Assembly (NCBI GenBank): GCA_030062745.1
Contig: CP099841.1
Coordinates: forward strand, 29,825,398-29,889,397
DNA from: Capitulum mitella
Taxonomy: Eukaryota > Arthropoda > Thecostraca > Pollicipedomorpha > Pollicipedidae
Reading direction: 5' to 3'
DNA length: 64,000 nt
This document shows positions 19,401 through 62,556 of this stretch, in pieces. A program made the translations under genes and the position numbers. Numbering within the stretch: the stretch's first letter is position 1; each line of letters starts with the position of its first letter. The notes under the pieces were generated by a model. It ran no database searches and was not told the DNA's origin. It saw nothing but the letters and a program-made list of their open reading frames with translations.

Positions 19401-20067
19401 AGTACGTAAAAATACTGACATTCGCTAGGATGGTTCCGCTCAAGATCGCGCGAGTGTAGTTCCTGATTTTGCCACCAGGGTAATATTCATTAGGTTAGGT
19501 TAGGTTAGGTTAGGTTAGGTCTGAACGAATTCATCTGCTTCCATCGAGGTCCAGCAATTCTGGAGAAAGTGGTCCTTTTTTCATGATTGACCTCACCTGT
19601 GACGTCATCAGCAGGTCAAAAGTAAAAGTGTGTAAGTCACAGAAACAAAACATTCAGCGCTATCAACTGGCATTCCAATCAGCCGAATCAAACTATTGGT
19701 TATCATACCATTGGTTCTTGAGCAGAACCATCCTAGCAAATGTCAGTATTTTTACGTACTCTTCCTGGCGGCGAGAAAAAGAACGAATATCACCCTGGTG
19801 GCGAAGTCGGAAACTACACTCACGCATTAACCTTGCTCTCGACTCTGCACATGGTGTGGATCGGTAAGGATTACCAACATGTGCACTACAACAGTATACA
19901 ATACAATATCAAGTATACATCTTGGCATCGGCAGAATACATTTTTCAGAAGACTTATTGCAATATGATGAAACACACAGAACACAATGTTTACAGACTAT
20001 TGCAAAAACAAAACTCACCAAACACCGATCGCATGGACTTCTCCACCAAAGAGTTGTCAACAGCCAT
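10284..20067 (-). CDS. CSTF2: cleavage stimulation factor subunit 2 (CstF-64), complete
   Basis: Eleven exons in transcript order: 20067-20019, 18779-18701, 16236-16067, 15727-15582, 14911-14804, 14173-13972, 13458-13318, 12535-12442, 11781-11612, 11075-10984 and 10400-10284. The exons sum to 1,368 nt, or 455 aa plus stop, and phases agree at every junction. Domains: RRM about residues 14-93 (RNP2 VFVGNI 15-20, RNP1 KGYGFCEY 54-61); hinge about 110-190 ([15 protein letters not shown], then [19 protein letters not shown]), which binds CstF-77 and symplekin; a Pro/Ala/Gly/Arg-rich middle; and the conserved C-terminal helix bundle ([17 protein letters not shown]). CstF-64 binds U/GU-rich sequence downstream of the poly(A) site during nuclear pre-mRNA 3' processing. 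[15 protein letters not shown] matches insect CstF64 closely. Length lies between the fly (about 420) and human (577) proteins. The human MEARA-type pentapeptides are absent. Exons 7 and 8 are the least certain borders. Confidence 0.95.
10765..10969. repeat. 41-bp minisatellite x5 in CSTF2 intron 10
   Basis: Five 41-bp units begin GGCCTG(C/T)TACAGTGG at 10765, 10806, 10847, 10888 and 10929 and carry CCTGGTGAGCCTTCAG. Near-identical units imply recent expansion. The array ends 15 bp from the exon 10 donor. Confidence 0.95.
10984..11075 (-). CDS. CSTF2: CSTF2 exon 10 (minimal form)
   Basis: 92 nt, phase 1 in and 0 out, acceptor TTTGCTGCAG, donor GTGGGT. It encodes [20 protein letters not shown] and ends GGDQEK, directly before the C-terminal domain. 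Two more in-frame acceptors lie 69 and 132 nt upstream (exon starts 11144 and 11207), so longer forms are possible. Confidence 0.85.
11071..11280 (-). repeat. 63-69-bp repeat triplicating the exon 10 acceptor
   Basis: Three diverged copies each contain, on the - strand, a CACnCTGTCCGG...GTTGCAG-like acceptor followed by (G/A)TCC(A/G)CC. Acceptor positions are 11207, 11144 and 11075, spaced 63 and 69 nt. The frame is open through all three. Confidence 0.8.
11612..11781 (-). CDS. CSTF2: CSTF2 exon 9 (DPR-rich linker)
   Basis: 170 nt, phase 2 in and 1 out, acceptor CTGGGCGGCAG, donor GTCAGT. It encodes [20 protein letters not shown] and [12 protein letters not shown], ending ADRDMR. Repeated DPR is typical of the CstF-64 middle region. 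Confidence 0.85.
11790..11945. repeat. degenerate CAGGTCAGCT repeat in CSTF2 intron 8
   Basis: Imperfect short units of CAGGTCAG(C/T)(T/C) type, broken by CAGCCC and GATCAGTT variants, directly upstream (in transcript sense) of exon 9. Confidence 0.7.
12442..12535 (-). CDS. CSTF2: CSTF2 exon 8 (Asp/Arg linker)
   Basis: 94 nt, phase 1 in and 2 out, acceptor TGTTGGAACAG, donor GTCAGT. It encodes [20 protein letters not shown] and DFDAR, continuing the D-M-D-L-R / D-R-D-M-R pattern of exons 7 and 9. Confidence 0.78.
12548..12925. repeat. decamer array CACAG(C/A)GGCA in CSTF2 intron 7
   Basis: About 38 imperfect 10-bp units of CACAGCGGCA / CAGAGCGGCA type. Because units are not multiples of three, all frames are open over stretches, giving several spurious ORFs on both strands. 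Confidence 0.92.
13318..13458 (-). CDS. CSTF2: CSTF2 exon 7 (Asp/Arg/Gly linker)
   Basis: 141 nt, phase 1 at both ends. It encodes GQDVDFRQ, then [17 protein letters not shown] and [10 protein letters not shown], the D-x-R style linker of the family. The acceptor CGCCTGCAG has a weak pyrimidine tract and the donor GTGCTT is non-ideal. Both were selected by phase and reading continuity. Confidence 0.68.
13972..14173 (-). CDS. CSTF2: CSTF2 exon 6 (Ala/Pro-rich linker)
   Basis: 202 nt, phase 0 in and 1 out, acceptor TTGCCCACAG, donor GTGAGG. It starts [13 protein letters not shown], the counterpart of ILHRQTNIPTL in vertebrates, then is low-complexity Ala/Pro/Val and ends GPFGPLGGG. Confidence 0.85.
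14465..14775. repeat. about 20-bp array CAGTCCATACCCGGACA in CSTF2 intron 5
   Basis: Roughly 14 imperfect units of (A)CAGTCCATACCC(G/A)GACATA(CAA), with length variants and a short inverted section near 14,575-14,620. Confidence 0.85.
14804..14911 (-). CDS. CSTF2: CSTF2 exon 5 (hinge, second half)
   Basis: 108 nt, phase 0 at both ends, acceptor TTCTTTCGCAG, donor GTGAGT. It encodes [20 protein letters not shown] and [12 protein letters not shown]. Confidence 0.94.
14939..15465. repeat. 68-80-bp minisatellite, about 7.5 units, CSTF2 intron 4
   Basis: Units begin (C)CGGTCA(C/T)A and contain CCACGGCCCACCG(C/T)(C/T)AACAG. Two sub-types alternate: one ends CAGCTGGA, the other CAGCGGGTT. The array fills most of the intron between exons 4 and 5. 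Confidence 0.92.
15582..15727 (-). CDS. CSTF2: CSTF2 exon 4 (hinge, first half)
   Basis: 146 nt, phase 1 in and 0 out, acceptor GCTCGGCCAG, donor GTGGGT. It encodes [20 protein letters not shown] and [19 protein letters not shown], the most conserved part of the hinge. Confidence 0.94.
16067..16236 (-). CDS. CSTF2: CSTF2 exon 3 (RNP1 half of RRM)
   Basis: 170 nt, phase 2 in and 1 out, acceptor CCTCTAG. It encodes [20 protein letters not shown] and then [10 protein letters not shown], ending in the [10 protein letters not shown] motif. The donor GTGGGT is chosen because joining to 15727 gives MEMQTLMQGP, parallel to the fly protein. Confidence 0.95.
17175..18250. repeat. dispersed repeat copy 1 (TGACCT-rich family)
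   Basis: Matches 28975-30000 over about 1 kb. Shared landmarks include CAAGTGGAC(T/C)TG, GCACCGG(C/T)GCCCGC and AACATATATGGG. It lies in CSTF2 intron 2. No coding capacity was recognised, so the class is unknown. Confidence 0.8.
18701..18779 (-). CDS. CSTF2: CSTF2 exon 2 (RNP2 half of RRM)
   Basis: 79 nt, phase 1 in and 2 out, acceptor TTGTTCACAG, donor GTAAGC. It encodes [17 protein letters not shown] and SQVGPVLSF, the first strand and helix of the RRM. Confidence 0.95.
19285..19875. mobile_element. foldback DNA transposon with about 150-bp inverted ends
   Basis: 591 bp bounded by GGTAATCCTTACCGAT on the left and its inverse on the right. Inverted arms are about 19285-19442 and 19727-19875 and look roughly 90% alike. 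Flanking AACA (19281-19284 and 19876-19879) is a 4-bp target duplication, confirmed by the intact site GAACATGTGC at about 19209. The interior holds a second partial arm copy (about 19447-19490) and a TTAGG tract. No transposase is present, so it is non-autonomous. Superfamily is undetermined. It sits in CSTF2 intron 1. Confidence 0.9.
19490..19520 (+). repeat. internal (TTAGG)6 tract
   Basis: Six perfect TTAGG units inside the foldback element. TTAGG is the ancestral arthropod telomere repeat. The internal position and short length make it an interstitial tract, not a chromosome end. Confidence 0.95.
20019..20067 (-). CDS. CSTF2: CSTF2 exon 1 (start codon)
   Basis: ATG at 20067-20065 has A at -3 and G at +4. 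It encodes [16 protein letters not shown] and splits codon 17 (phase 1) at a GTGAGT donor. The start is chosen because the RRM follows about 14 residues later, as in known CstF-64. The frame is open further upstream, so a longer N-terminus is not formally excluded. Confidence 0.85.
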
Positions 20068-35995: not shown

Positions 35996-36690
35996 TAAGT
36001 TGCTATCTGGCAATATATATTGGCATATTGGCTATCTCTATGTAGATAATGCAGCAATAGCTGCATCACATTAACATTCTGTGCAACGATCTCTGTGTTC
36101 AAAGAAAAAAAACAGGAGGGAATCAGCAACAACAAAACAACACACGTGTCGCACGGAATTCAAGCTTTTCTCTTTTGTGCACTCAAGCACCATTCAGTTT
36201 AACATAGTTTAAACCACTGCGTCACCATATTACGGCTGCTAAATTCAAGCACATTATATTTTGTTCTCAGAGACGTTTGACTTCAAGCTTCTAATGATCT
36301 TGTTGGAAAGTTAGAAGCCGCAAATAATAGATCCATGCACACACCCTAATTTTCCTTGTCCTTTCTACCACGCGCACTGGAAGGGGATCTTTTTGTGCCC
36401 TGAACCTGCTTTTCTTTAATGTCTCGAGAACGGATCGAAGTTGGCTTCTGCTACTTTGTGACATTAAAGGTATTTAAACATCTCGTCGACTGACGCGGAA
36501 AAATCGAAAATCGGACGAAAACATCTGAAATTTCAAGCATTTGAAATCAAACAAACATAACGACAATGACGTCTGTTGCTGACTAATGGAAACCTTGTGA
36601 AAGGACTGGCGTTCTACCTAAGATTACCGCTTGAACATCATCAGGCGACGTCATTCGGGCATAAGTGATGGATGTACCAAAACCAAAGCC

Positions 36691-37150
36691 AGGGTCAATA
36701 AGGGTCAAGGTCATCAAAGGTCAAGGTCAACCAGCTTGTGACCTGATCCAGATATGCCTTCAAACATGTCGGCTTGTATGAAATATGTATTCAGGGAACC
36801 TAATAAAAACACACGTGCGCATACTGATACCCTTCCATATACCAGGGCCAATAAAGGTCAAGGTCATCAAAGGTCAAGGTCAAATATTTTGTGACCAGGT
36901 CCAAATTTGTTATTCGACATGTCGATTTGTATGAAACATGCATTCAAATACCCTAATAAAAACGCGTGAGCGCACATGGATGCACATATATATACCAGGA
37001 TCATTGCAGGTCAAGGTAATCAAAAGCCAAAGTAACTATTTTGTGATCTGGCCCAGATCTGCTTTGCAGTATGTCGATTTGTATGAAATATGCATTCAAA
37101 GACCCTACTAAAAACACTTTTGGTACGTTAGTATGTATATACATATACAT
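36691..37150. repeat. 153-bp tandem repeat x3, AGGTCA-rich
   Basis: Units start at 36691, 36844 and 36997. The first two carry AAGGTCAAGGTCATCAAAGG followed by TCAAGGTCAA, and all carry TTTGTGA(C/T)C, TGTCG(G/A)(C/T)TTGTATGAAA and CCTA(A/C)TAAAAAC. The third is more diverged. Direct AGGTCA repeats resemble nuclear-receptor half-sites, but function is unknown. Confidence 0.85.
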
Positions 37151-44040: not shown

Positions 44041-47000
44041 GTGAGCCGATCCAGTCTGCACGAGCGCCGCGTCTTTTCACGTTCTGCGGGCGAGGACCGA
44101 TTCAGGGATACTGGCGAAGACGCTGGGCGGAAGGCCAAAATATGGGCATACAACAGTTCTAAGGTTGGCTTATGTCTTCAAGTGGTTACGTTTTTTTTTT
44201 TTGCTTCTAACATATGCAGTAATTCTTTTTTCAGGGATGGGATATAACGTAGTTGTTTACCCGTCGTGTTTGCGAGGGATAAAAAGGTACTGCCGCTTCC
44301 GGTAAACTGGTGAAATGTTTTTTTTTTCTATTTTCCCGTACACCGTTAACAATTGCACAGATGGAACGGCTTGATTGAAAACGACTCATAGCTATGGTAA
44401 AGGAGGTGTTCTCGAGTAACTTTACAGCACCATTGCTGGCTTATTCAGAGACTTTGTTTTGCACCTGATGACCTTACATTTTCATGATCGACTGATGTGG
44501 ACAAACAGAAATCGATAAACGAGTTGTTATGTCTTCCACTGCGATGAAAAGGAAAATAATGTATGCGTAACTTTACGAACGTACGCTCTTCCTTGTCATT
44601 CGTCAGTGTGGTTTACACCTTCCATCTTCTAGGCCATTTTCAAAGGGGATAAACAGTATGCGCTTTACTCTTGGCAAGTTGCTATGGTAAACGAATCGCT
44701 TGCATCAGCGTCTGAATATCCGTGTCCTAACTGCCACTGTTGTGAGGCAAGGACGTAGGATTTTACCAAGCAGGGGCTAGGACAAACCTAAGCCCCTCCC
44801 TCCCGAAATCTGAAACATCCCGGATTTCGGACACTTTAACGGTTTTTGAGCTCCAAAAATTTTACTCATGCCCACTTTTTGTGCTATAAAAAGTAAAGTT
44901 TTCAACCTGAGGGGAGCTATGATCCCATGGCCTTCCCTTGGCTACGCTACCTTAGTGGGGGGACTTGCGATAGTGTTCCAGCAAATCGTTTGCGGGAGTT
45001 TGCATAGCGCTTATTAAAATGTCTGCAACGCCATTTTCAAGAAAGATGTCACGGGAACGTCAAAGAAATGTCATCCTATGTCAGAGACGTATGAGATTCA
45101 TAACTCTGCCAGTCTTGGCCTTGTGCCGCTTTTCCCACCATCCACCCAGTACATAAGCACTTGCTTGTTGACTGCCCTTCTACGTTTCTCGTCATTTGCG
45201 CGACTTGAACAGCAACATGTTTGCCCGGTGGGAACCTGGCCTGATATCGCTTGGCATTACTTTTGTCTGACGTAACGCTTCATCAGTTCCTGTCCGACCT
45301 TCTCAGTCAAATCCCACCCATATTATGTCAACGACCATGCGATTTTAGTATGATGCGGTACTACAACGTATCATTTTAATCCTAACGGAGTTGTGCGGGC
45401 AGTTACCAGTTTAACGGAGCATCTTTGCAAGCCCAATTTTCCTCCGATACGTTGTCTAAGTAGAACTTACAGGCAAATATTTTACCTTGATTTTTACGGT
45501 ACGGAATAGGGTTTCTTTGAAATATGCAAAACGCCGAGATAAATAACAAATGCTATTCAGAATATTCTGTCCAGTAATTACCTCCACGCTCTATGTCTGA
45601 GTTACATCACCACCCGAAACCCATCTTCCCTATGAATGGCGTCATCAGGAACCTCACGGCTTTCCATGGTCTAGACCTCTCCGCCAGGCCCATCAATCGT
45701 GCGAATACAGGGACTGGAACGGCACCCTCTGACCTACGACCATGCGGCCGCCAGTCGTCCGAGTACAGGGACAGGAACGGCACCCTCTGACCTACGACCA
45801 TGCGGCCGCCAGTCGTCCGAGTACAGGGACAGGAACGGCACCCCCTGCCCCACCACACTGCGGCCATCACGTGTCCGTGTACAGTGACAAGAGCGGCACC
45901 CTCTGGCCTACGACCATGCGGCCATCAGGTGTCCGAGTACAGGGACAGGAACGGCACCCTCTGACCTACGACACTGCGGCCATCAGGTGTCCGAGTACAG
46001 GGACTGGAACGGCACCCTCTGACCTACGACCATGCGGCCGCCAGTCCTCCGAGTACAGGGACAGGAACGGCACCCTCTGACCTACGACCATGCGGCCGCC
46101 AGTCGTCCGAGTACAGGGACAGGAACGGCACCCTCTGACCTACGACCATGCGGCCGCCAGTCGTCCGAGTACAGGGACAGGAACGGCACCCTCTGACCTA
46201 CGACACGGCGGCCATCAGGTGTCCGTGTACAGGGACAAGAGCGGCACCCCCTGCCCCACCACACTGCGGCCATCAGGTGTCCGTGTACAGGGACAAGAGC
46301 GGCACCCTCTGACCTACGACACTGCGGCCATCAGGTGTCCGAGTACAGGGACTGAAACGGCACCCTCTGACCCACCACACTGCGGCCATCAGGTGTCCGA
46401 GTACAGGGACAGGAACGGCACCTATGGCTCTGTGTCGATCGTTCGAGTGTCCCAATCGGCATCCAATTATAGGTGTATCTATAATCCAAATAGGTGCACC
46501 GTCGAAGGTGCAGCCTCCGAAAGCAGTTTTGGTGGTCTGCTTTATTCAGTGATGAGTGAGACACGCCCAAAATCGTCTGACGTTTCAAAGGTTCATGCGT
46601 TTGCTTTAGATAGGGTTCGATCGATTCCGCTTTTCATTCGACATCTCACAATACTGGACCTGTTATGAACATAGTACGCAACGATGACCGTAATGAGGGC
46701 ACTTAAATGGAAACTTTGTTACTGCATACATAGGAAACGTTAATGTCTCAGGCCTTTTTAATGTTACAGCTAAAGGTGCGTTTTCCATTTTATTTATTTT
46801 TTTACATTTCGTTATGTTCATTTTGGATTGGCGTGCTGCAGTCAAGCAATTTACTTACATCATAAAGATAAGCAGCTGTGTTTAGGTGCGTCATCAGTGC
46901 TCTTTACGATGAATTCGTTACCATCCCACGTTTCCTCAAACAAGGCCATAGTTTATCTCTTGGCCCCTTGACGCATTCTTCATCGGGTTGGCACCATTGA

Positions 47001-53000: not shown

Positions 53001-56000
53001 GAACAAATGGTGGTCAGCATGAATGGGGGTGTATTAAAAACGCCCAGGACGTTGGAAGGTACTGCTTTGTTTTTATCGGTTATTTTCATAGCAACATAGG
53101 ATAATCTCCATTTCAGTTCAAGCATGCAAAAACTCTCGGACTTTGATAACAGAAACACCCAAAAGTGGTTTTAGGGGGCAAGGATTTCAAATGTGTAAAA
53201 AGAACGAAATCGAAAAGCAAAGCTCTAATGAAGAGCAGAAATGACCTCTCTTACGAAAATATTAATGGGTAATGCTAGGGATTCCCATTTGCTTAGGAAA
53301 CCATGAAAATCATTACAGTTGGTAAAGAAGTTATCATTCCGCAGTTCAAATTAGGATGTAACTTGTACGAGTATTTTATAAATATCTTGTAACTGTTTTA
53401 AAAATACGTTTTCACGTGGCATTCAACAAACCTAAAAAAAAACATGTGGTTAGTATAATTGCAGCTCCGCGGCACTATTCTCTGTTTTTTACTTGTACTT
53501 CCCTTTCGGACACCATGTTTCATTGACGGTCAAATTATTACGGATGGATAAATTTTGTCCGACTATCGTCCTAGTCTTGTGTGTTATTATTTACACACAA
53601 GACATGGACGTTAGTCACAGAATTTCTCAATCCGTAATACCAACGCCTTGTCTCAATCAGCCCGCAAAACTCTCACGGGCAAAGTTCCCAAAAACCCATT
53701 GGTAACGTGTATGTATAGATACAATAAATTCACAGTCGCACGCCGTTTCCAGCTGTGTTTATTATAATGTTACACCTTTAATCGAAAGTTTTAATTATCC
53801 AGCGTCCAATGTCATGTAAGCCTCAAGTTTGATGCGCTAGTCTCCGATCAAATCATCATTAGCCAGTTCTCTTAATGGAATCCTGTCCCTCCCCTCCATC
53901 ATTTCATTGGCGCCGCTCGCCCTCCGAAATTCCACGCCATCTGCCTCGGTGAGTCCGTTCATGGGAAGCACCCACCCCAAAAATGCCAAGCTGTCTCGCC
54001 AATTGGCCCATTTAAGGTGCGATTTGGGCGAAGCGCGACGCAATTAGACGGGATTAGGGCGGCGGGCCTCACCGCCGAGGTCTCTCGGGCGACGGCACGG
54101 GGTTCGGCCAGTCGGTCCCCGCGCGGCTGCAATAAGACAGGATCAGCCGGCGCGCCATTGTGCTCGGGTCGCACTGTTGAGTGCTGTCAGCTATATGTGG
54201 GTGTGCCGGGGCGGTGTGCTGGCAGGGGGAGGAGGAGAGGTCCGCCAACGGTGTGCTGCTAGGGCGCTGCAGAACGGATGCGCGGAGTCTGAGCAGCTAC
54301 TAACAGATCAGGGTAACATCTGACGTCGTGGCATATGCATTATCGCTCCAGCTTCATCAACCGACAGAGCGTCTTTTAAATAACACTTTCCGTGGTTTCA
54401 AGAAAACTTCAGCTGTCGGATCTGCGACCAAACTATGTAATGAAGGAAACAAGAAATCAGAATGAATGTGCTTGGCATATTTCATAAGAGGTATTCACTG
54501 AAAAATGACACCAGAAAATTAATCGTGTTTTTCATGTTTGCATTCATTGAAGCCCTGAAGTTACGATGCGTCTGTTTGTGTTCCAGGAGCTCTGTTCGAG
54601 GTGGGGACAGCTGACACGGACCCTCTACAGGAGTCCGGGAAACTGCAATCAGACTGCTCACATGAAGCGTCTCACAAACCTGAGTAAGGCAGCTACGGCC
54701 AATTTCAGAGCATCTTTATCTGTTCAGAATATCCGCATGCTGAAAAACGGTGTAAGAGACTTGTTCAGTGAAAGACCTCACGTGTTTTATTTACGAATGG
54801 AATAGTGAAAACAAAAAGAGGCACGACACTGTATGATACCATGAAATTGTTCGCCTCTCTTGCTTCCATGTCATGTCAGTCATGTCAGTGACATGACTGA
54901 CACGCCGCCCCGGTGTGCTGTGTGATAGCACGTGTGAGATGCAGGCTTTGACAGTGACATAATTCGGTCCCGCAGTCGAAAAATTCGGCGGTCTCGCACG
55001 ACGTTCACGACCTATCAGCTGCACGCCCTGGAGCGGGCGTTCGAAAACTCTCAATATCCAGACGTTTTCACTCGCGAGGAGCTGGCCACCCAGCTCCAGC
55101 TGACCGAGGCCAGAGTTCAGGTGAGCTGCAGCGGCCAAAGATGGCCCCGCACAGAGCACAGATGACAGACAGCAGTGGAAGAAGATGCAGAGCACGATAC
55201 AATTGCGGTGTGACAGTCGGACTGACGAAGCCAAACTTCATGTGAATTTAGAATGGTCGGAATGGAACGAGAAAACTGGCTCTGATGTTTTGATTAGTTT
55301 GCTTGCAAAAGCTTTGTTAAAACTCTGTGGTGAGCTGATTTCACGGCTGGCGCAAAGCCCTTCACCCTATCACATCCTATGGGCAACAGCTTTCGCAGCC
55401 GGTGCCGCCGCGAGCTACCCACTCGTCTCGGTCCCCTCGCCCTTCACCGAGCGGCCGCCATGTAGAACATCTCGCCGCTGAGGTAATCCGCGAGACGCAG
55501 GAGGTGGTCCCGGTAAGCCCCGCCAGCCAAAACCATTAGCGCCGTCTTTGTGGCCTCATCTGTGAGCGCTTGGCGCACGGCCCAGCGCAGGCCGGCCCGG
55601 CGGCCGCCTATCGTTTACCTATTTAACGTGCGGATACAGTATTACTTATTCGAGTGCGACAATGGGGGCACCGCGCTGGGCCGGGGCGTCAAAGGCGGTG
55701 ATAGTATCGTCTCGGCGGTCTGAATGGGAGGCTGGGAGCAGCAGCTGGTCGAGCCGCGCCGTCGGTAATCCATCGGCGATGGTGGCGCCGTGCGGCGGCG
55801 GTAAGACGCACTAGGCCCGATGCAGCGACGGAAGACGCTGCCTGGACGATCAACGGTCCTTCCGCCTTGTCGCCCACTTGATGCCCGATCTCGCACTCTT
55901 CCCGTGATCCATCTGCGGTTAGACGCCGGTAGAAAGTTTTCATCGTCGGGATATCGACATCAGCTGACGGTCTGTGGCATCAGGTGGCCATGCTGCAGGA

Positions 56001-59000: not shown

Positions 59001-61993
59001 ACGCTTTTGGATCGGGAGAGGGCGCCAAATCAGCTTTGATCTCCGCTGACCGGTTTCTGCTGCAATCCCCTCTCGGTGCAGATCGATCAGGCCACTTCCG
59101 ACTGGTAATGGATCAGAATTGAGGCAATCATTGGCGGCACACTGGCGTCGAGTGAGCGCCGATTGGAGCCTTTTCATCCATGGATGTACACTGAATCGTC
59201 TAATGTGCCGAGCACCGTGGACGGCAATGGCAGGCAATTTGCCGGCCGTGATTGACCGCTGAACGGGGCGAACCACTTCTTACGGGGGGGGGGGTAGGGG
59301 GAGGGGGACATACGCAAAACGCTATCTAAATATCGAGCCATTTCTTGGAGCCCTACGCTGCCGTAAGATTTATTCAAATGCCGGATGGTCAAGCAAGGTC
59401 AAAAACCTTCAGCAAATCAAAGAGCGTTCTATATCCCACGTGTCGTCTGCTCTAGGTCTGGTTCCAAAATAGAAGAGCAAAATGGAGGAAAAGAGAGAAG
59501 ATCGCAGGAGACGAAGGCCCTTCAGCTCTTCTGATGAATCGATTCATATCAGGTAACGAAGCAAAGTTCCAGCTGTCTCTTTGTACAAGGACTTCTAGGC
59601 ATAAAATAGTCCATTGAAATCGCGTTTAGAGGAAAGCAGTACAGGTGTCCTGCAAACATTCGTGAACAATAAAGAACTCTACAAAAGAGTTAATTTATGG
59701 ACAGATCATTGTGCAGCGCCACGCTCACTCGACTTTTGGATTATTGGATTATTGGATTGAACTGGACTAAAAACCATTTGGATTTCTATTCGTACATGCG
59801 CAGCGTACCACGCCGAACAGCAGAGCAGGAGCGTCACACAGCGTGCCTGTTGCGCACAAGCCAGGTGATGGAGTTCTTGACCCTCGGCTTTGCTTGTCTG
59901 CTCTGACTGGCAGCCAATTCCGTCGGCAGGCTGGCTGCGGTCCGCTGCAGGAATGTGTGGAGGTCTTGACTAGTCCTGGAAATCTCGTGTTGAGTTCATT
60001 TTGCATTGTTGCCGTCATGGGCCGCTAAGGAGCGATGCGTAGATGGACCAAACCAGGGGCGGAATTTCATAAACTTTTGATGGGGCTTAACCTAAAACCT
60101 TAAATTTAAAGGGCTTCATAAACTTTTGAGCCCCACAAAGCTTGGTTTTGATCCCAACAACATGGATTTTGGCCCCTCCAACTTTCCTAGGCTTGTTGGC
60201 AAGTTGGCCTCCGTAGACTAGTGAGCATCAAAGTGCTTCTCTTTTTTCTCCTTTTTGACCAACACATGCACATATGCGTAGGTGTCATAATCGATGGAGA
60301 TGGAGAAACCATAAACTGGTGGTTGGGGCCCATCATAATAATGAGACCAATGATGTGACTGCGATTTTGCCTTCAACGAAAATCCTGCTTTGGCCCCACC
60401 AGCATTTCTGAAGAAGCTCCACCCATCGGCCAAACAAAGCTAAAGGAGATTTAGTTTCTCAAATTCAAAGATTGTGTTTTTACTTGTGGACTTTAGTGAC
60501 TTGAAACCATTCTGTTATAAGTTGTTTTTTATGCTTCCCGAAACTGCTGAAAATGGAGAGGGCGATAAAATTTCACCCAGTTGACCAGGTCAGCAGATCA
60601 GCGATACCCTTCAGAAACCAACGCCTCTGCGGGCTAGCCCACCCTTCGCACTCGATCTATGAACGGTTCAATGGAAAATGGGCCCAACGCGGACTCAGAA
60701 CACAGGTGTGATCTTGACCAGGGCTAGAGTGTCTGACTCGTGGCCCTGACCGCTGACCCCGAACGGCCAGCCTGCCTGCAGGCTCGCTCCCGCCCGTGAC
60801 CCTGAGCGGCGAGCTTGTCCGCAGGTTCACTGCTGCTGCCGTGACCCTGAGCGGCCAGCCTGTCCGCAGGTTCACTGCTGCTGCCGTGACCCTGAGCGGC
60901 CAGCCTGTCCGCAGGTTCACTGCTGCTGCCGTGACCCTGAGTGGCCAGCCTGTCCGCAGGTTCACTGCTGCTGCCGTGACCCTGAGTGGCCAGCCTGTCC
61001 GCAGGTTCACTGCTGCTGCCGTGACCCTGAGTGGCCAGCCTGTCCGCAGGTTCACTGCTGCTGCCGTGACCCTGAGCGGCCAGCCTGTCCGCAGGTTCAC
61101 TGCTGCTGCCGTGACCCTGAGCGGCCAGCCTGTCCGCAGGTTCACTGCTGCTGCCGTGACCCTGAGCGGCCAGCCTGTCCGCAGGTTCCGTGCTGCTGCC
61201 GTGACCCTGAGTGGCCAGCCTGTCCGCAGGTTCACTGCTGCTGCCGTGACCCTGAGTGGCCAGCCTGTCCGCAGGTTCACTGCTGCTGCCGTGACCCTGA
61301 GCGGCCAGCCTGTCCGCAGGTTCACTGCTGCTGCCGTGACCCTGAGTGGCCAGCCTGTCCGCAGGTTCACTGCTGCTGCCGTGACCCTGAGCGGCCAGCC
61401 TGTCCGCAGGTTCACTGCTGCTGCCGTGACCCTGAGTGGCCAGCCTGTCCGCAGGTTCACTGCTGCTGCCGTGACCCTGAGCGGCGAGCTTGTCCGCAGG
61501 TTCACTGCTGCTGCCGTGACCCTGAGTGGCCAGCCTGTCCGCAGGTTCACTGCTGCTGCCGTGACCCTGAGCGGCCAGCCTGTCCGCAGGTTCACTGCTG
61601 CTGCCGTGACCCTGAGTGGCCAGCCTGTCCGCAGGTTCACTGCTGCTGCCGTGACCCTGAGCGGCCAGCCTGTCCGCAGGTTCACTGCTGCTGCCGTGAC
61701 CCTGAGCGGCCAGCCTGTCCGCAGGTTCCGTGCTGCCGCTGGACCGGTACGGTCCGCTGCCAGCCGGAGCGGAGTCGCTGTGTCGGCCGGTGCCGCTGCT
61801 GCTGCCCTCGCTCTTCATGAGCTCGCTGCAGCTGCCCAGACTGGGGCTCGGCCTGGTGGCGCGCTCGGCCGCGGAGCCGGCCACGGCCCGGCCGGGCGCC
61901 GACACCCCGCCGCCGCTCCTGAAGTCGGCCGGCCGGCGGCGGACGCAGGAGCAGGAGGCGGCCGGTCAGCGCGGCCGGGCCCGGCTGGAGTGA
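43941..61993 (+). CDS. hbn: paired-class homeobox gene, homeobrain-like, complete
   Basis: Five exons: 43941-44040, 54587-54683, 54976-55120, 59456-59552 and 61725-61993 (708 nt, 235 aa plus stop). Borders follow GT/AG, and phases 1, 2, 0 and 1 agree. Residues about 10-18 hold an octapeptide/eh1 repressor motif, YSIDSILG, which in this class recruits Groucho. The homeodomain (about 70-128) reads [38 protein letters not shown], then [16 protein letters not shown]16, F20, W48, F49, N51 and R53 are all present. The intron after residue 46 is typical of the PRD class. Residue 50 is Q, as in paired-like factors. The sequence is nearest to homeobrain; Rx is the main alternative but has PEVRVQ. The tail is Leu/Pro-rich ([16 protein letters not shown]) and then basic, with no clear OAR motif. 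Homeobrain is a nuclear regulator of anterior brain patterning in insects. Intron 1 is 10.5 kb. Confidence 0.92.
44748..44952 (-). mobile_element. hAT-like MITE
   Basis: 205 bp from CAAGGACGTAGGATTTTACC to TTGGCTACGCTACCT, a decayed CAGGGGCG/CGCCCCTG pair. Flanks TTGTGAGG and TAGTGGGG match at six of eight positions. In hbn intron 1. Confidence 0.65.
45701..46424. repeat. 58-bp minisatellite, about 12.5 units, hbn intron 1
   Basis: Units of GTCCGAGTACAGGGACAGGA followed by ACGGCACCCTCTGACCTACG and a GCGGCC core. Two sub-types differ at the end (CGCCAGTC and ATCAGGT) and are intermingled. ORFs here are shadows. Confidence 0.94.
46430..50150. other. hbn intron 1, nothing recognised
   Basis: AT-rich intron sequence without identified exons, RNA genes or well-defined repeats. 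TGACCT motifs occur at 47,130-47,270 and 49,300-49,350. Confidence 0.5.
50190..50325. repeat. short-unit array (A)GCCGGGCGGGTGACAC
   Basis: About eight imperfect units of 15-18 bp (CAGCCGGGCGGGTGACA, CACTCGGGCGGGTGACA and similar) in hbn intron 1, next to a GC-rich island. Confidence 0.85.
50336..50500. promoter_or_regulatory. GC-rich island, candidate enhancer in hbn intron 1
   Basis: Non-repetitive GC-rich block with TAATCC at 50370-50375 (Otx/Bicoid-class site), CAATTGAGCAC and GCCATTACAGCG. No open frame resembling an exon. The role is inferred only from composition, motifs and location in a homeobox gene intron. Confidence 0.35.
52150..52440 (-). mobile_element. LINE reverse-transcriptase fragment, decayed
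   Basis: The - strand peptide [19 protein letters not shown] corresponds to the V-P-Q-G-S-I-L-G-P block of non-LTR reverse transcriptases, followed by [19 protein letters not shown] where the active YADD box is expected. YTEG in place of YADD shows it is dead. Clade (Jockey/CR1-like) is not resolved. It sits antisense in hbn intron 1. Confidence 0.8.
53985..54260. promoter_or_regulatory. GC-rich island, candidate enhancer upstream of hbn exon 2
   Basis: Contains GCCAATTGG, CAATTAG and GGATTA (54051-54056) in a CpG-rich, non-repetitive block about 0.4 kb before exon 2. Homeodomain-type sites are visible. The enhancer role is inference. Confidence 0.38.
54587..54683 (+). CDS. hbn: hbn exon 2 (acidic linker)
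   Basis: 97 nt, phase 1 in and 2 out, acceptor GTGTTCCAG, donor GTAAGG. It encodes [14 protein letters not shown] and ends SHEASHKP. It has no domain of its own and is included because it is the only nearby exon whose phases join exon 1 to the homeobox exon, giving [14 protein letters not shown]. Confidence 0.78.
54976..55120 (+). CDS. hbn: hbn exon 3 (homeodomain residues 1-46)
   Basis: 145 nt, phase 2 in and 0 out, acceptor GTCCCGCAG, donor GTGAGC. It encodes the N-terminal arm, helix 1, helix 2 and the start of helix 3 (LTEARVQ). Confidence 0.97.
55360..55900. promoter_or_regulatory. GC-rich island(s), candidate enhancer in hbn intron 3
   Basis: Starts about 240 bp after the homeobox exon. 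GC-rich, non-repetitive, with TAATCC at 55484-55489 and 55766-55771 and TTTACCTATTTAACG at about 55,614. No exon-like frame. Confidence 0.38.
55901..59455. other. rest of hbn intron 3
   Basis: Mostly AT-rich with no recognised gene. A further GC-rich patch lies at about 56,930-57,060 and a G-tract at about 59,284-59,309. Confidence 0.5.
59456..59552 (+). CDS. hbn: hbn exon 4 (recognition helix)
   Basis: 97 nt, phase 0 in and 1 out, acceptor CTGCTCTAG, donor GTAACG. It encodes [15 protein letters not shown] and ends ALLMNRFIS. It completes the homeodomain 4.3 kb downstream of exon 3. Confidence 0.97.
60054..60140. repeat. partial MITE-like sequence with internal duplication
   Basis: Begins CAGGGGCGGAATTTC, like a hAT-type end, and repeats CTTCATAAACTTTTGA with GGGGCTT nearby. 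No opposite end was identified. Confidence 0.45.
60740..61742. repeat. 45-bp array, about 21 units, each with a 3' splice site
   Basis: Units of GTGACCCTGAG(C/T)GGCCAG followed by CCTGTCCGCAGGTTCACTGC and TGCTGCC. Some degenerate copies lie before 60,797. The main variants are GCGGC/GTGGC, CAGCC/GAGCT and TTCACT/TTCCGT. Because 45 is a multiple of three, three frames stay open for about 1 kb and produce large spurious ORFs. The last unit supplies the acceptor of hbn exon 5. Confidence 0.95.
61725..61993 (+). CDS. hbn: hbn exon 5 (C-terminus and stop)
   Basis: 269 nt, phase 1 in, TGA at 61991-61993. It encodes [34 protein letters not shown] and a basic Arg/Gln-rich end. The acceptor CCTGTCCGCAG is the last of about 21 identical acceptors in the 45-bp array. 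Only this one opens the long frame. The overlapping + and - strand ORFs of 112-430 aa are repeat shadows. Confidence 0.82.
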
Positions 61994-62550: not shown

Positions 62551-62556
62551 AATAAA
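62551..62556 (+). terminator. possible poly(A) signal of hbn
   Basis: AATAAA about 560 nt after the hbn stop codon and just before a MITE. Tentative. Confidence 0.4.

Follow-up and report, generated by a model that had tools for sequence, protein, structure and literature searches.

Minisatellites that duplicate an intron–exon boundary have been reported in amphioxus under the name of mirages (PMC3087553, PMC3902484). Reverse transcription-polymerase chain reaction suggests that regular splicing in amphioxus is undisturbed by mirages (PMC3087553). In amphioxus BflGb6, the repeated segment joins the 3′ end of an intron to the beginning of the exon that follows (PMC3087553, PMC3902484). An array of this kind was analysed here in 64,000 nucleotides of DNA from Capitulum mitella (Thecostraca, Pollicipedidae), positions 29,825,398 to 29,889,397 of the forward strand of contig CP099841.1 (assembly GCA_030062745.1). 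This whole stretch is called the window, and positions are counted from its first letter unless a contig or locus is named. The array is made of 45-bp units and lies at the 3′ end of intron 4 of a homeobox gene read as homeobrain (hbn). It is probably a minisatellite of the mirage kind that grew from the 3′ boundary of intron 4 and is neutral and tolerated, with the exon-adjacent copy being the one used.

The 45-bp array and its acceptors

A single array was delimited by Tandem Repeats Finder (TRF) at 60754–61736 on the forward strand, with a period of 45, 21.9 copies and 96% matches. Within it, GTCCGCAGGTTC is present 21 times at a spacing of exactly 45 bp. The first exon base of the acceptor-like copies is 60825 and then recurs each 45 bp up to 61725 (21 sites), in agreement with the array of about 21 copies of the exon-5 acceptor that a reading of the sequence alone (hereafter the sequence-only reading) had noticed. 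The acceptor form named in that reading was found as CCTGTCCGCAGGTTC in 19 of the 21 copies; as CCTGTCCGCAG it was again found in 19, with a one-base difference in the other two. TTGTCCGCAGGTTC is present in two of the 21 copies, starting at 60815 and 61490. That every unit carries this acceptor followed by GTTC thus holds but for one base in two of the 21 units, and but for a diverged first unit (60754–60798, forward strand), which differs at 12 of its 45 positions and carries CCTGCCTGCAG|GCTC. The 21 units diverge by 3.0% on average and fall into five types; the last unit is a type of its own, and variant types also occur internally (61185, 61500). The AG is kept in all 21 core units.

A 15-mer of the array had 19 matches at the locus and one stray match on another contig when the 477-Mb genome of 16 contigs was searched, and the reversed 15-mer had none; the array is therefore not due to chance. 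A doubled unit gave at least 11 matches, all of them inside the hbn array among the matches listed. Assembly of such near-identical units is difficult, and the copy number might have been inflated by mis-assembly of a shorter repeat. Such an artefact is extremely improbable, as the five unit types do not follow one another with a simple period and shorter arrays of like kind are present in other genes of the assembly.

Acceptors were scored with a matrix built on the final 20 bases of the intron. For the exon that follows the homeodomain intron, a pattern gave 28 matches, from which 25 distinct sequences with enough upstream letters were kept; one was intronless, leaving 24 acceptors, which include the exon-4 acceptors of hbn and its paralogue. 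Real sites were scored leave-one-out and 19,935 AGs were used as background. Five array sites representing the unit types scored 9.7–10.4 bits (10.4 for the last copy, 61725), which places them above 14 of the 24 real acceptors and in the top 0.6–1.0% of the background AGs. With a second matrix that includes two exon bases, all 21 copies scored alike. The earlier view that the copies are acceptor-like in sequence was borne out by these values. TGAC is found in each unit with its A at −26. As a donor, the CAG|GTTCAC of the unit scored 2.6, against 5.8 for the exon-4 donor, on a donor matrix that rests on two sites. RNA structure that might hide upstream sites was sought by folding four stretches, and nothing striking was obtained (z = −1.53, −0.17, −0.76 and −1.64).

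Because the units span the boundary, the array appears to have grown from it by tandem duplication. The repeatedly duplicated 45-bp piece would have spanned the boundary, taking in the branch-point-like TGAC, a brief run rich in pyrimidines, the AG and roughly the first twelve bases of the exon; the extra copies lie on the intron side.

The hbn gene, its paralogue and the frames entered at each copy

The homeodomain exon of hbn, which encodes residues 1 to ~45, was located at 54986–55120 (forward strand) and is followed by a donor at 55121 (GTGAGC). The match to Pfam PF00046 (C3:29880383–29880520) corresponds to 54986–55123 of the window, its last codon belonging to the donor. Exon 4 (59456–59552, forward strand) is 97 nt long, ends with RFIS in phase 1 and has the donor CAG|GTAACG. 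Intron 4 (59553–61724, forward strand) measures 2172 nt to the last acceptor of the array and 1272 nt to the first core copy. The contig carries two further homeodomain exons, at 29.95 and 30.02 Mb. We take these to be rx-like and otp-like, hbn, rx and otp being told apart by their homeodomain sequences. The locus has a PRD-class homeodomain, an intron at 46/47 and linkage to rx-like and otp-like homeodomains. Judged by this linkage, the name hbn given by the sequence-only reading fits the gene, as these genes form a published hbn–rx–otp cluster in which the hbn intron has the same 46/47 position (PMC2938728).

Outside this locus, the 89-aa peptide of exon 5 had a single good match, which lies on contig C2 (E=1.1e-6; next best 0.045). 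The homeodomain exon of this paralogue is 89% identical over 47 residues, its exon 4 has equal length (97 nt) and equal phase, and the exon-4/exon-5 structure is common to both genes. The two exons 5 align with a score of 131, and none of 2000 shuffles exceeded 75. A conserved C-terminal block (61778–61843, forward strand) has the same residue at 19 of 22 codons, with 3, 2 and 7 differences at codon positions 1, 2 and 3. The paralogue shares the position and phase of intron 4; its exon-5 acceptor scores 5.5 bits and is without any such array. Since structure, phase and C-terminal block are shared, exon 5, its frame (as read earlier) and the position of intron 4 can be relied on; since the paralogue has the intron and no array, intron 4 is independent of the array. 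A whole-genome duplication has been published for barnacles (PMC11331182).

The N-terminal exons of hbn were sought by DNA comparison with the paralogue, which gave matches just for the homeodomain exon, exon 4 and exon 5. Protein comparison gave one further weak match at 53901–54026 (E=1.5e-4) among the matches listed. As the N-terminal exons were not identified, the length of ~152 aa proposed earlier for a short protein was not confirmed.

Exon 4 was joined in silico to each array acceptor and the product was translated. Behind all 20 upstream copies (60825–61680, forward strand) a TGA follows after six codons in the phase of exon 4. The peptide is GSLLLP in 19 of them, as had been stated for every upstream entry, and GSVLLP in the remaining one (61185). 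Entry at 61725 reads through to the stop ending at 61993, which gives 89 residues after the last whole codon of exon 4 and a coding part of exon 5 at 61725–61993 (forward strand, stop included). The first AATAAA after this stop is at 62551–62556 (forward strand). If 61725 is used, the array overlaps the intron–exon boundary and ends inside exon 5, an exon whose presence and frame are confirmed by the paralogue.

Among the 21 copies, the conserved C-terminal frame is opened by the last alone, and to that extent the earlier claim of a single productive entry stood. It did not extend to two further acceptor-like AGs on the forward strand just downstream of the array, with 61764 or 61770 as first exon base, which are in phase and would open the conserved frame too; the last copy is therefore the best entry and not the sole possible one. 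Were the real acceptor 61764 or 61770, the array would be wholly intronic and the protein untouched. Both sites would keep the conserved block, and 61764 scores 6.9 bits, above six of the 24 real sites, with 5.0 bits for 61770. The higher score of 61725 and an alignment with the paralogue that takes in GPL upstream of 61764, although as a weak match, make use of either downstream site quite improbable.

A point beyond the sequence-only reading concerns the AG of the diverged first copy. Entry at 60782 leads into another frame of 435 aa, open through the whole array to 62088, in which all units would be read as a repeated peptide. The site scores 7.9 bits, above eight of the 24 real sites, and exon 5 of the paralogue itself starts with an in-frame 27-bp coding repeat (LTSAAGLSS-like; L013:2281–2687, C2, minus strand). 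A coding array is nevertheless very improbable. The conserved C-terminal block is lost in this frame, and its openness means little because four of the six frames are open through the 45-bp unit. Pfam matches to two repeat frames were obtained, with no stretch passing alone, and the unit and the 27-bp repeat are not detectably alike. Homology between these two repeats was rejected, because an equal or higher score was reached by 152 of 1000 dinucleotide shuffles. Compared with the whole of intron 4 and exon 5 of the paralogue, the unit scored 28, above all 300 shuffles (maximum 26); this match sits in the CTG-rich conserved coding block and could not be interpreted. Near both paralogues lies a 153–154-bp tandem repeat rich in AGGTCA (36689–37117 in the window; L013:649–1081). 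Judging by the two TRF consensus units, the two occurrences appear to belong to a single family and to lie in opposite orientations.

Arrays at other homeobox splice boundaries and the choice of copy

TRF was run on 241,718 bases, comprising the window and 20 loci mostly around homeobox genes. The 53 arrays with a period of at least 9 and at least three copies make up 4.7% of these bases. A 58-bp minisatellite of 12.6 copies (45690–46422 in the window) and the hbn array are the only ones of at least 700 bp among the 53. The window also contains an interstitial TTAGG run of 6.2 copies at 19490–19520; TTAGG is the arthropod telomere repeat.

To find copies of splice boundaries, a 30-base piece around each homeobox boundary was compared with its 300-base surroundings, with a cut-off of 22/30. 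The 102 boundaries comprised 42 donors, 36 homeodomain-exon acceptors picked by best score and hence inferred, and 24 next-exon acceptors; by position they belong to 45 genes, 42 of which have a donor. Ungapped copies only are counted by this test. Exon 5 of hbn and L019, found by other ways, are outside the set, and L073, an unclear homeodomain, was dropped. Controls were drawn from 60 sequences, and windows of one gene are not independent.

A local copy was found at five of the 102 boundaries (L017, L020, L021, L091 and L097) and at 34 of 720 random nearby positions, these 34 being clustered in 18 of the 60 sequences, so that the rates are rough. No enrichment at splice boundaries was seen in this comparison (Fisher p=1.0). 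Within homeodomains, none of 126 windows had a local copy (p=0.017 against boundaries), and in introns, 60–220 nt past the donor, 15 of 210 windows had one, from six of 42 genes. Roughly, then, arrays cross boundaries about as often as nearby sequence holds them, and none was seen inside homeodomain exons. As the boundary rate equals the random nearby rate, there is no sign that splice sites favour arrays of this kind. They would arise in the non-coding sequence of this genome generally, splice boundaries included, and be tolerated rather than selected. Enrichment of acceptor motifs in tandem arrays generally was not shown either, in a comparison of 39 arrays with single-copy segments matched for GC (combined p=0.17).

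Both kinds of splice site are represented among these arrays. In the otp-like gene (L017, C3:30022429), the donor boundary of the homeodomain exon is repeated three times on the intron side in ~30-bp units, the third without GT. In L024 (C11:9243234, minus strand), the homeodomain-exon donor is likewise repeated three times on the intron side in ~30-bp units, with broken copies and with indels that caused them to be missed by the boundary test. In L091 (G000:C3:12443603–12444683, minus strand), 38-bp units carry the acceptor and the first exon bases. Four units lie between −114 and 0; two of the upstream copies are intact and match the authentic site in score (10.7 bits), and one no longer has its AG. 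Two diverged acceptor arrays were found in genes which we take to be paired-type homeobox genes: L019:2600–3100 (C12), six 70-bp units found by TRF, and L020:180–500 (C6), with ~30-bp units. The exon-adjacent copy is the best in both, scoring 14.3 in L019 against 2.7–13.4 for the other copies keeping AG, and 9.7 in L020 against 3.1–7.5. In L020, entry at the copy lying 30 bases upstream leads to a stop, and the last copy is thus favoured by frame as well.

In hbn, the copy touching exon 5 would serve the full-length protein. Acceptor choice in a long intron should lean to the exon side, by exon definition together with the poly(A) end, and in long introns the upstream member of a pair of 3′ sites is reported to be preferred less strongly (PMC9225289). 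Some leakage to upstream copies is plausible and would yield a homeodomain protein without the conserved C-terminus.

Several points weigh against the explanation as a whole. We infer the use of 61725 from genomic sequence and not from transcripts. The upstream preference in long introns was reduced and not shown to be reversed, and a classical result cited in the same paper favours the upstream 3′ site (PMC9225289); if the upstream site is favoured, a mostly truncated hbn protein is predicted. L021 has two copies, of which the upstream one is stronger (11.9 against 5.1 bits), both reading the same open frame. Score was itself the criterion by which the L020 site had been picked, and for the L019 exon the open frame was the sole basis of judgement. 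At −26 the strict branch-point pattern YTNAY is not matched (GTGAC), the unit having a strict match at −41 only, while 13 of the 24 real introns have one at 21–29 nt. As a repeat unit, the hbn 45-mer is unexceptional in acceptor score (p=0.10 against GC-matched segments).

Alternatively, as the sequence-only reading proposed, the array might be functional, copy number setting the ratio of full-length to short Hbn or the array drawing off splicing factors as a sink. In its favour, the acceptor is intact and of almost equal score in each of the 21 core copies, whereas the AG has been lost from one of four units in L091 (−114 to 0), one of two in L097, one of six in L019 and one of ten in L020. 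The stop of the short form would lie in the last exon, so junction-dependent decay should spare this form. However, at 3.0% divergence intact copies are expected of a young array anyway, copies at boundaries are not in excess, the paralogue has no array, and amphioxus mirages are reported not to disturb splicing (PMC3087553, PMC3902484). Control of a truncated isoform by copy number is possible, the anatomy of the array being what speaks for it; as a whole, a functional array is unlikely. It is decidedly unlikely that boundary-spanning minisatellites are common enough in this barnacle lineage to be a standing source of splice variation, with the hbn array as a polymorphic rheostat for a homeodomain protein lacking its C-terminus. 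A neutral, tolerated minisatellite with the exon-adjacent copy in use is the probable reading.

Comparison with known boundary-spanning minisatellites

The hbn array is best called a mirage, a known kind of element, with an unusual number of intact acceptors and in a gene and an animal group for which no earlier report was found in the literature searched. In that literature, which took in little of what is published under subscription, no splice-site minisatellite was found for a crustacean. In genomes with such arrays, automatic gene models may choose the wrong copy.

IFI6-type minisatellites reportedly offer a splice donor in each unit; they and the hbn array are both minisatellites with a splice site per unit, a donor in IFI6 and an acceptor in hbn. 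Introns gained by tandem duplication of an AG/GT segment offer another comparison, and the hbn unit likewise contains AGGT. Creation of intron 4 by such a duplication was rejected, the paralogue having the intron at the same position and phase without an acceptor array.

The closest likeness is with the amphioxus mirages. In both, tandem units span the boundary and carry splice signals, AG/GT being present in many of the amphioxus units. The hbn array has 21 complete, nearly equal acceptors, whereas BflGb6, the case compared here rather than Adh3, is described with 6 and 3 units in two haplotypes. The hbn array lies in a homeobox gene of a crustacean, and all its upstream copies read straight into a stop, unlike the amphioxus mirages. 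Splicing has been examined for the amphioxus mirages, while the hbn array is known from genomic DNA. With 21 nearly equal 3′ splice sites, the exon-adjacent one alone keeping the conserved frame, the locus is a natural duplicated-acceptor experiment. It bears on how the spliceosome chooses among equal acceptors in a long intron, be it the first one, the last one or a mixture of them. That arrays of similar make-up are present at other homeobox splice sites in the genome suggests an occurrence of mirages outside amphioxus as well.

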